Below are positions 52,878-54,667 of a stretch of DNA of 64,000 nucleotides, piece by piece. Below the pieces are notes generated by a model. The model saw nothing but the letters and a program-made list of their open reading frames with translations. It made no database searches and was not told the origin of the DNA. How positions within the stretch are numbered: the stretch's first letter is position 1; every line of letters starts with the position of its first letter. A program made the translations under genes and the position numbers. Origin of the DNA: Pseudofrankia saprophytica (GTDB lineage: Bacteria > Actinomycetota > Actinomycetes > Frankiales > Frankiaceae); NCBI RefSeq assembly GCF_000235425.2, contig NZ_KI912266.1, positions 3,663,671-3,727,670 of the forward strand, read 5' to 3'.

Positions 52878-54110
52878 TCAACGACGCGTCTTGTCCCACG
52901 CTGGTGGCCAGTGGATGTCCTCGGGGGCGAGGCGGGGGCGCTGGTCGGCGGGCCACGGCGCGGTGAGCTCTTCCTGGACGATCTCGAAGAGGCCGTGGTC
53001 GAAGGGGGTACCGGGGGCGGGTGTGGTCTGGACGAGCCGTTCGCGGGTGCCTGCCCGCTGGTGGGTGAGCGCCCGGTGGTGGCAGTAGGGGTTGTTGCCG
53101 GGGCGGCCGAAGAAGGTGTGCGCGGTCCAGGTACAGCCGCCGCGGCACACGTCGGCGTATTCGCAGGACCGGCAGAACCCCCAGGTGTTCTCCGTGGCGG
53201 CGTCGGTTCCGGCGGTCATGTTGATGGCCAGCTGGGGTGCGTCCCGTAGCAGGTCGACCAGTCCCCGCTCGCGGATGTCGCCGGCCGCGTAGTCGCCAGT
53301 GGGCAGCGATGGGCAGCCCTTGATGGTGCCGTCCGCCTCGATGCCGAGCGTGGTCAGCCCTGCCTGGCATCCCGACCAGAATGCCGTGCCTTCCGGCGAG
53401 CGCAGCAGCCGTTCGTAGGGGCCGTAGTAGCCGACGTTGTTGCCCGCGTGGATGCGGATGCCGTCCGCCGCGGCTCGGCGCGCGACCTGGGCGAGCATCG
53501 GGAAGACGTCGAGAAGCTCGACCGGCTGGAGCAGCATCTCGGAGTGGTCGGCCGCGTTTCCCATCGGGACGGTCAGCTGCCATTGCCAGGCGGCGACCCC
53601 GGCGGCGCGCAGGGCGAGGTACAGCTCGGGCAGTTCCGGCGCCGTCAGTCGGTTGATCTGGGTGTTGCAGGTGGCGGTGACCCCGGCGGCGCGCAGGTGC
53701 CGGATGGTGGCGAAGCAGGAGTCCCACGAGCCGGTACGGCCGCGGAGCCGATCGTGCGTGGCCGTCATGCCGTCGACCGACACGGAGCACTGCTCGATGC
53801 CGGCCGCCCGCAGACCCCGGGCCATCGCCGCACTCATCCGATATCCGCCGGTGGTCATGGTGCAGGCCATTCCCCGACGGGTGATCTCGGCGGCGATCGT
53901 CAGCCAGTCGCGCCGCAGGAACGCCTCACCGCCGATGAGGGTCACCTCGTCCACGCCGGCCTGTTCGAGCTGGGCGACGACGTCGAGGGCCTGCGCCGTG
54001 GTGAGTTCCGCCGGACGTGCCTGGCCCGCCCGGGAACCGCAGTGCCCGCAGGCCAGGTTGCACGCGAGCGTCAGCTCCCACACCGCGTAGGTGCGACGCG
54101 GGGTGGTCAT
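52878..54110 (-). CDS. radical SAM/SPASM enzyme, probable peptide maturase
   Basis: The 410-residue protein has the radical SAM cluster motif CNLACGHC (Cys 17, 21, 24). IGGEAFLRRDW near residue 58 provides the SAM-binding GGE, and SVSVDGMTATHDRLRG lies near residue 107. From about residue 255 a SPASM domain carries seven cysteines (SGCQAG, GTIKGC, FCRSCEYADVC, RGGC and NPYC), enough for two extra iron-sulfur clusters. Such enzymes usually modify ribosomally made peptides. ATG 54110 overlaps the stop of the proline-rich peptide gene, its likely substrate. Confidence 0.85.
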   Translation of the reverse strand: MTTPRRTYAVWELTLACNLACGHCGSRAGQARPAELTTAQALDVVAQLEQAGVDEVTLIGGEAFLRRDWLTIAAEITRRGMACTMTTGGYRMSAAMARGLRAAGIEQCSVSVDGMTATHDRLRGRTGSWDSCFATIRHLRAAGVTATCNTQINRLTAPELPELYLALRAAGVAAWQWQLTVPMGNAADHSEMLLQPVELLDVFPMLAQVARRAAADGIRIHAGNNVGYYGPYERLLRSPEGTAFWSGCQAGLTTLGIEADGTIKGCPSLPTGDYAAGDIRERGLVDLLRDAPQLAINMTAGTDAATENTWGFCRSCEYADVCRGGCTWTAHTFFGRPGNNPYCHHRALTHQRAGTRERLVQTTPAPGTPFDHGLFEIVQEELTAPWPADQRPRLAPEDIHWPPAWDKTRR

Positions 54111-54517
54111 CGACGGCGCAGCCGGTCCAGCAGCCGCCGCCATCCCGAAACAGGTCCAGGCGACGGCGGATAGCCCTGACGGGACCAGGGCGGCGGACCG
54201 CCGTAGACCGGCGCTGGCGGTGGTGGCAACGGCGGTGGCGGCATGGGAGGCGGTGGAAACGGCGGCGGCGGTGGAGGCGGTGCCCCGTAGACCGGCGCCG
54301 GCGGCGGGCCGAGCCGATGAGGGTCGGGAGACGGCGCGATGGGTGGCGGGAAACCGGAAGGAGAACGGTCGGTACCGAGACGGATCGTGTCGTCGCGCTC
54401 GGCGTCCTCTTCCTCCGCGAGCCGTCGCGCGATGGCGTCGTCCCGCTCACGGCCTATCTGCTCGTCACGGCCAGGCCCTCGCGGCAGGCGTGGTTCGGAC
54501 GACTCCGCTGGAATCAC
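54107..54517 (-). CDS. proline-rich peptide, candidate precursor for the radical SAM enzyme
   Basis: The predicted protein has 136 residues. Residues about 15-50 are charged and helical (ARRLAEEEDAERDD). The middle is dominated by Pro runs broken by Phe, Met and Leu, with two copies of APVYG followed by A or G and PPP. The end carries GYPPSPG and a basic amphipathic tail GWRRLLDRLRRR. It has no cysteine. GTG 54517 is preferred over GTG 54523 since AGGAG lies eight bases upstream. Its ATGA overlap with the enzyme gene is strong evidence that it is translated. A leader/core reading is inference; a scaffold protein is the alternative. Confidence 0.6.
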   Translation of the reverse strand: MIPAESSEPRLPRGPGRDEQIGRERDDAIARRLAEEEDAERDDTIRLGTDRSPSGFPPPIAPSPDPHRLGPPPAPVYGAPPPPPPPFPPPPMPPPPLPPPPAPVYGGPPPWSRQGYPPSPGPVSGWRRLLDRLRRR

Positions 54518-54667
54518 CTGCACGTCTCCTGTCCTGTAGGGGCGGCTTCCAGGACAGACCGTACGCCGGGGACACTGGGGCCTGGCCGGTTCTGACGCCG
54601 GCCGTCCTGCCCGCGCCCACCGGCCTCGGCCGCGCGGTGCCTGGCCCGCCCGCGCGCCGGCCGGCGA

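Follow-up and report, generated by a model that had tools for sequence, protein, structure and literature searches.

The window, a stretch of 64,000 nucleotides from Pseudofrankia saprophytica, carries two overlapping genes on its minus strand, one for a proline-rich protein and one for a radical SAM/SPASM enzyme, with the following features:

52878..54110, minus strand: radical SAM/SPASM enzyme, 410 aa, TIGR04103-like, a predicted tyramine splicease on the basis of family, motifs, tree and fold
54039..54062, minus strand: radical SAM motif C17-x3-C21-x2-C24, invariant in 15 sequences
53082..53369, minus strand: SPASM region from C248 to C343 with seven cysteines, invariant in 15 sequences
54107..54517, minus strand: putative proline-rich substrate protein, 136 aa, GTG start, supported by sequence, orthologues and purifying selection
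54526..54530, minus strand: AGGAG, candidate ribosome-binding site 8 nt before the GTG at 54517
54404..54487, minus strand: LPR motif with a charged segment that is probably helical, residues 11-38, conserved in Frankiaceae; proposed recruiting element
54284..54292, minus strand: predicted splice site 1, Val76-Tyr77-Gly78 in APVYGAPP, from motif conservation
54200..54208, minus strand: predicted splice site 2, Val104-Tyr105-Gly106 in APVYGGPP, from motif conservation
54110..54145, minus strand: basic amphipathic C-terminal tail GWRRLLDRLRRR, residues 125-136, seen in the sequence and recurring in the substrates of relatives

The longest open reading frame for the proline-rich protein begins at a first GTG (54107-54523, minus strand); the second GTG at 54517, which gives 136 residues, is the better choice of start because AGGAG lies 8 nt upstream of it. 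The enzyme frame as listed (52878-54143) encodes 421 aa, and an internal ATG at 54110 yields the 410-aa form, whose start is overlapped by the stop of the peptide as ATGA, the overlap described in the earlier note on this DNA. The sequence also agrees with that note's account of a cysteine-free, proline-dominated protein of 136 residues, as it contains 42 Pro, no Cys and two APVYG sites within Pro runs. Its highest 19-residue Kyte-Doolittle mean is -0.28, so that a hydrophobic stretch is absent, and searches of NCBIfam (E <= 10) and Pfam (E <= 1) returned neither a family nor a Nif11 leader. Purifying selection acts on the peptide frame, with pN/pS values of 0.39, 0.44 and 0.43 in three pairs (0.22, 0.15 and 0.22 for the enzyme) and with the motif kept, in line with its being a conserved reading frame.

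The seven-cysteine SPASM domain claimed for the enzyme is borne out by the alignment of 15 homologues, in which C248, C266, C313, C316, C322, C326 and C343 are invariant together with C17, C21 and C24. The enzyme matches Pfam Radical_SAM at E 2.4e-20 and Pfam SPASM at E 4.3e-4, the latter with 20.9 bits and thus slightly below the cut-off of 21.5. The top family is TIGR04103, nif11-class peptide radical SAM maturase 3, at 635 bits (below the curated cut-off of 725), followed by TIGR03913 of the GDL system at 399.5 bits (far below the curated cut-off of 591.75). Three cyanobacterial relatives pass the TIGR04103 cut-off of 725 with 815-840 bits, and the homologue from Gordonia misses it with 580. 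The AlphaFold model of the enzyme (pLDDT 82.5, pTM 0.85) found SkfB, BlsE, SuiB, anSME and PqqE among its top matches in a fold search, which, as far as a predicted model goes, confirms the radical SAM/SPASM fold and not the reaction.

A Pfam scan of six neighbouring genes gave a metallo-beta-lactamase fold (opposite strand), SDR, amidohydrolase, UPF0014 and Cons_hypoth698, with no match above the cut-off for the sixth. None of these six is a peptidase or known peptide exporter, as had been said of the adjacent genes before. The enzyme and the proline-rich protein form a conserved unit and the flanking genes are not conserved: when eight window proteins were sought in nine regions of relatives, the enzyme was found in 9/9 and the other six genes in 0/9, and the peptide was recovered by tblastn at 1e-8 in 3/9, the remaining regions being recognised by the motif. 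The enzyme is found in 11 of 35 Frankiaceae genomes, and in ten of these 11 (own, G001, G003, G005, G012, G019, G022, G028, G034 and Frankia canadensis) it is preceded by an ORF with P-(V/I/A)-Y-G-(G/A)-P-P that overlaps the enzyme match or lies at most ~170 bp away. This is the neighbourhood check that the earlier note had proposed, and since a partner precedes the enzyme in 10/11 genomes, the lack of a conserved partner, which that note had named as speaking against its proposal, was not what we found. At the locus of F. canadensis (L040) the remaining 151 bp of the contig read PAPVYGAPPPPP...RWRRWWERCAGR-stop, and in G028 the enzyme match is split into two pieces. The eleventh genome (G030, C621, locus L016) holds enzyme fragments only, and the xYG motif was not found on the enzyme strand of this locus; joint decay of the pair or an assembly break may be behind this. 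Among the relatives, flanks are common to L128 and L130 and to L131 and L133. A protein of 282-291 aa (~45% identity) lies near the pair in these four Frankiaceae loci and, as far as tested, not in the surroundings of the window.

The DNA pattern for APVYG(G/A)PP was searched in eight genomes. It has two matches in the own genome of 9.98 Mb, both inside the proline-rich gene, and the reversed pattern has 0 there. Two copies each were found in G001 and G005, and the pattern is absent from the enzyme-free genomes of the same genus, G002, G004 and G006. G016 has neither the enzyme nor the pattern, and G012, in which the enzyme is present, has 0 matches to the pattern, its single site reading TPVYGGPP.

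A pattern scan limited to a single genome for each species found 325 relatives of the enzyme, of which the best 80, corresponding to 79 loci, were kept. Within this best 80 of 325, 67 loci are cyanobacterial, five belong to Frankiaceae and two to an Eremiobacterota MAG, and a Nocardiopsis MAG, Gordonia asplenii, a Myxococcales MAG, a Bryobacterales MAG and bacterium SZAS-1 contribute one each. Identity of the enzyme to its cyanobacterial relatives is 56-60%, and outside Frankiaceae it reaches at most 68%. At E <= 1e-90, among the matches listed, TIGR04103 was found in one of 396 actinobacterial genomes, the own one, and profile A2 at E <= 1e-60 in 10 of 393 genomes of the own class, all in the own family. 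Searches for the enzyme gave 1/59 genomes in the genus of Gordonia asplenii and 3/299 in the class of the Bryobacterales MAG.

An xYG ORF lies within 2 kb upstream of the enzyme in 67 of the 68 loci with enough flank, against 6/68 in a control window of 2 kb downstream, in a fixed-motif test for which the motif was picked after the cores had been inspected. Over all loci the figure is 74/79, the exceptions being L040, L064, L067, L068 and L089; a partial xYG ORF is present in L040 and a downstream one in L067 and L068, and at L064 and L089 an xYG precursor was not found. A greedy count of non-overlapping ORFs (68/79 loci) was rejected, since it missed the Frankiaceae precursors, which are overlapped by longer spurious ORFs. 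Tyr is followed by Gly in 153 of 456 cases in the best adjacent ORFs versus 273 of 4050 elsewhere, fractions inflated by the choice of the best ORF at each locus. Upstream of the cyanobacterial enzymes lie Nif11-type precursors whose cores resemble QP(L/M)YGV, and the one tested matches the Nif11 model. A small PlpY-like ORF that contains LLPRSAWxSQxAYLRxxFRAKKALDRIEKEA follows the enzyme in 66/79 loci; L068, the sole uncounted cyanobacterial locus, has one 2.3 kb downstream. Of the 12 non-cyanobacterial loci, 11 were checked in this count and all 11 lack the PlpY-like ORF, and none was seen at the twelfth, L040.

The candidate substrates outside cyanobacteria are diverse. That of Bryobacterales has four VYGGPP around a likely membrane segment, that of Eremiobacterota L048 has five VYGAP, and that of Nocardiopsis is an ORF of 57 residues with one AYGGPP and a basic tail. 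In bacterium SZAS-1 an ORF of 319 aa (L101:4006-4965) with ten QPxYGV repeats lies before the enzyme, so that up to ten splice sites are predicted in one protein. In Gordonia asplenii a protein of 464 aa (L056:3583-4977; Pfam Pkinase, E 2.4e-13) adjoins the splicease homologue and carries three VYGGPP repeats and a basic tail at its C-terminal end, a kind of tail also present on Frankiaceae and Nocardiopsis substrates. By eye, its catalytic HRD and DFG motifs look altered, so that it may be a pseudokinase whose tail is spliced. To judge from these sequences, the constant feature across lineages is x-Tyr-Gly and not proline-richness, and the other parts of the substrates change.

The enzyme tree was built from 58 chosen rows, with L098 left out. 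The window enzyme groups with Frankiaceae (100/99) and next with Nocardiopsis and Gordonia (100/97), and this actinobacterial clade (100/97) is nested in a clade of 40 rows (100/100) that includes cyanobacterial TIGR04103-type enzymes. A branch of 0.91 changes per site separates the 40-row clade from the GDL-like enzymes of Myxococcota. The rows labelled as having proline-rich VYG substrates do not group together in a single clade (3 changes), and therefore this substrate type is older than the clade or arose repeatedly within it.

The GDL-motif maturases of TIGR03913, many of them in Myxococcota, are a sister family by score. Unlike them, the window enzyme is on a separate branch, and GDL substrates resemble zinc-ribbon lipoproteins. 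Profile A2 is matched at E <= 1e-90 by 82 of 235 Myxococcota genomes. At about two thirds of 30 Myxococcota loci (L147-L173), inspected by eye, a neighbour has a zinc-ribbon-like N-terminus and a hydrophobic or Cys-containing segment; the same neighbours carry xYG(A/G/V)P repeats on an acidic tail and lie beside GDL-like radical SAM enzymes.

The window pair can be compared with the splicease PlpXY, of which PlpX is WP_019503880.1 and PlpY WP_019503879.1, and with its spliceotides from Pleurocapsa sp. PCC 7319 (PMC11002830, PMC10533398, PMC10373908). According to the literature, tyramine-excising spliceases lie beside XYG-containing ORFs (PMC11002830, PMC10533398), the plp locus has an arrangement of Nif11 precursor and PlpY (PMC11002830), prototype splicease precursors have Nif11 or nitrile-hydratase-like leaders, and splicease products are called protease inhibitors (PMC11117315 among others). 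Like PlpXY, the window pair combines a SPASM radical SAM enzyme with X-Tyr-Gly in the partner, here as two VYG sites, and the AP-V-YG of the window has Pro two residues before Tyr, as does the splice tag GGPIRPGYGLPI published in PMC10533398. The cyanobacterial relatives of the window enzyme further share Nif11 precursors and a PlpY-like ORF with that system. Unlike PlpXY, the window pair is a two-gene locus without a Nif11 leader in which no PlpY gene was found, and its VYG sites stand in a polyproline context in a protein with a basic tail. After YG the window substrate reads GP or AP, whereas the cyanobacterial cores mostly read V-V or V-I. Unlike sactipeptides and ranthipeptides, the window precursor has no Cys for a thioether (0 in 136 residues).

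The splicease survey of Scott et al. 2022 (Chem 8:2659) reportedly names peptides and proteins in its title. The window pair may be one of the 939 systems predicted in Scott et al. 2022; our literature search, with the contents of that survey outside its scope, found no report of a Frankia splicease. We take IPR026482 to be equal to TIGR04103, and the link of the window enzyme to PlpX runs via this family and not via direct comparison. A review places PlpX in IPR026482, and PMC10533398 cites 939 predicted and 27 further characterised splicease systems.

We propose, with a probability of roughly three in four, that the two genes form a stand-alone substrate/splicease pair in which the enzyme binds the proline-rich protein and excises tyramine at both Val-Tyr-Gly sites. 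Gene pairing, motif conservation and enzyme clade were computed, and from them we infer splicing, recruitment and role as follows. The radical SAM enzyme would bind the proline-rich protein, probably via the N-terminal LPR-helix. A tyramine equivalent (C8H9NO, 135.07 Da) would be excised from each Val-Tyr-Gly site and the remaining Tyr carbonyl rejoined to the preceding Val, giving a product with two Ala-Pro-Val-alpha-ketoamide (beta-amino acid) units in polyproline arms. By analogy with known spliceases, the most likely mass change is -135.07 Da per site rather than -2 Da. Relatives of this enzyme presumably excise a small fragment from protein chains at Tyr-Gly sites, so that two built-in reactive groups are probably present in the proline-rich protein. 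The locus would represent chemistry known from cyanobacteria on an unusual substrate, probably as a leaderless tyramine-splicing pair.

It is considerably less probable that the enzyme crosslinks or oxidises Tyr (or Trp or Arg) without removing tyramine, as the earlier note had suggested. Many SPASM enzymes make crosslinks, and SkfB and SuiB are among the best matches of the modelled fold; yet Tyr-Gly is constant across lineages with otherwise unrelated substrates, Trp and Arg lie outside it, and the nearest relatives have the layout of spliceases, with clade members adjoining XYG ORFs in the published splicease arrangement. That note overlooked the meaning of the motif as a predicted x-Tyr-Gly splice site, and of its proposal of an undescribed RiPP-like system the pairing of a SPASM enzyme with a proline-rich protein stands (10/11 genomes), while 'undescribed' is not supported, the enzyme falling in a clade whose members lie beside XYG-containing ORFs. 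We consider it unlikely that the proline-rich protein is an adaptor or scaffold and that the enzyme modifies another target in trans, even though separate recruiting proteins exist in radical SAM systems, PlpY being described as one (PMC11002830). The xYG motif lies within the proline-rich protein itself, and APVYG(G/A)PP occurs nowhere else in the own genome. Very improbable is a Val-Tyr crosslink or decarboxylation on VYG as in mycofactocin maturation by MftC, a SPASM enzyme that acts on a Val-Tyr pair. Such a pair is also present in the window substrate, but here VY is internal, homologues differ in the residue that precedes Tyr (L, M, V, I and others), and the window enzyme does not reach the cut-off of TIGR03962 (106 bits versus 265). 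That the proline-rich ORF is an artefact of GC content, with the enzyme as a lone gene, as the many overlapping long ORFs in this high-GC stretch and the lack of a Pfam or NCBIfam match for the peptide might suggest, is in effect refuted by purifying selection, conserved ends and motif, and the ATGA coupling.

If the pair does splice out tyramine, a protein that stays in the cell or at the membrane surface is a likelier product than a small peptide for secretion, because the proline-rich protein lacks a hydrophobic segment and neither an exporter nor a protease was found among the scanned neighbours. By analogy, and as the weakest step of the scheme, the product could plausibly inhibit a serine protease in a covalent and reversible manner. 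An Ala-Pro-Val unit followed by a ketoamide is similar to synthetic inhibitors of elastase, and Val at P1 and Pro at P2 suit elastase- or HtrA-like proteases. Because of this fit we tentatively envisage, as a rather doubtful extension, a leaderless and PlpY-less branch with its own recruiting helix, in which the two warheads of a resident protein would inhibit or sense an endogenous elastase- or HtrA-like protease and the tail would sit at the membrane or at a partner. If the splicing proposal is true, backbone beta-amino acid formation would occur in Frankiaceae, on a leaderless, probably non-secreted protein and in a two-gene system, and the question would become what a backbone ketoamide does inside the cell. 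Incomplete conversion and elaborate optimisation of the tag are reported for PlpXY as a tool (PMC10533398); a PlpY-free two-component splicease acting in a proline-rich sequence could be a simpler tool for introducing a ketoamide handle.

The LPR-helix near the N-terminus of the substrate may stand in for PlpY. A search for PlpY gave no match at E <= 1 in the own genome, and over 14 genomes four had weak matches (E 0.07-0.92). LPR occurs within the first 25 residues in 37 of 1379 background ORFs and in four substrate lineages, a count made after the motif had been seen. A PlpY profile was built from 66 cyanobacterial PlpY cores and searched against 2796 ORFs from non-cyanobacterial loci; the best match was the substrate of Eremiobacterota L098 (E 0.012), and Frankiaceae substrates were absent from the 15 best. 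Over 299 scored LPR-anchored stretches this profile placed L098 at rank 2 and L142 at rank 7, with Frankiaceae substrates at ranks 17 to 150 and L046 at rank 199, so that among these stretches the Frankiaceae N-termini were not above background; ranks 1 and 3 were ORFs of L139 and L140, themselves fetched by the PlpY search. Conversely, a profile of Frankiaceae N-termini over 295 LPR-anchored stretches had L046 as the first match outside Frankiaceae (E 0.0022), L098 as the sixth and L142 as the 250th. Against the full ORF set L046 dropped to third place outside Frankiaceae (E 0.84), after two ORFs that are not considered relatives. The hhalign probability for PlpY versus Frankiaceae N-termini was 0.8%, rising to 4.2% with L046 added and to 22% with L046 and L098. 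L098 through the PlpY profile and L046 through the Frankiaceae profile would make a suggestive chain linking the LPR-helix to PlpY, but the Frankiaceae sequences themselves do not match PlpY in these comparisons. An ORF of F. canadensis matched by the iterated PlpY profile at E 0.04 was rejected, as it appeared by eye to be a helix-turn-helix regulator.

Some further observations concern individual loci. L139 and L140, in the genomes of L048 and L101, are similar frames of 153 aa with ILPR(D/G)AWNQFLAKL that lie away from the splicease locus; their matches to the PlpY profile have E-values of 0.57 and 0.92, and they are possibly a PlpY acting in trans. L142, from the class of the Bryobacterales MAG, has a substrate candidate of 294 aa that starts LPRSAPDPNYLLRLRERAFARMRQDE, with a twin-arginine-like signal by eye, followed by PAPQYGAP. 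Beside the splicease, ORFs of 111-115 aa at L048:6261-6608 and L101:3650-3985 look alike by eye and may represent a further conserved gene.
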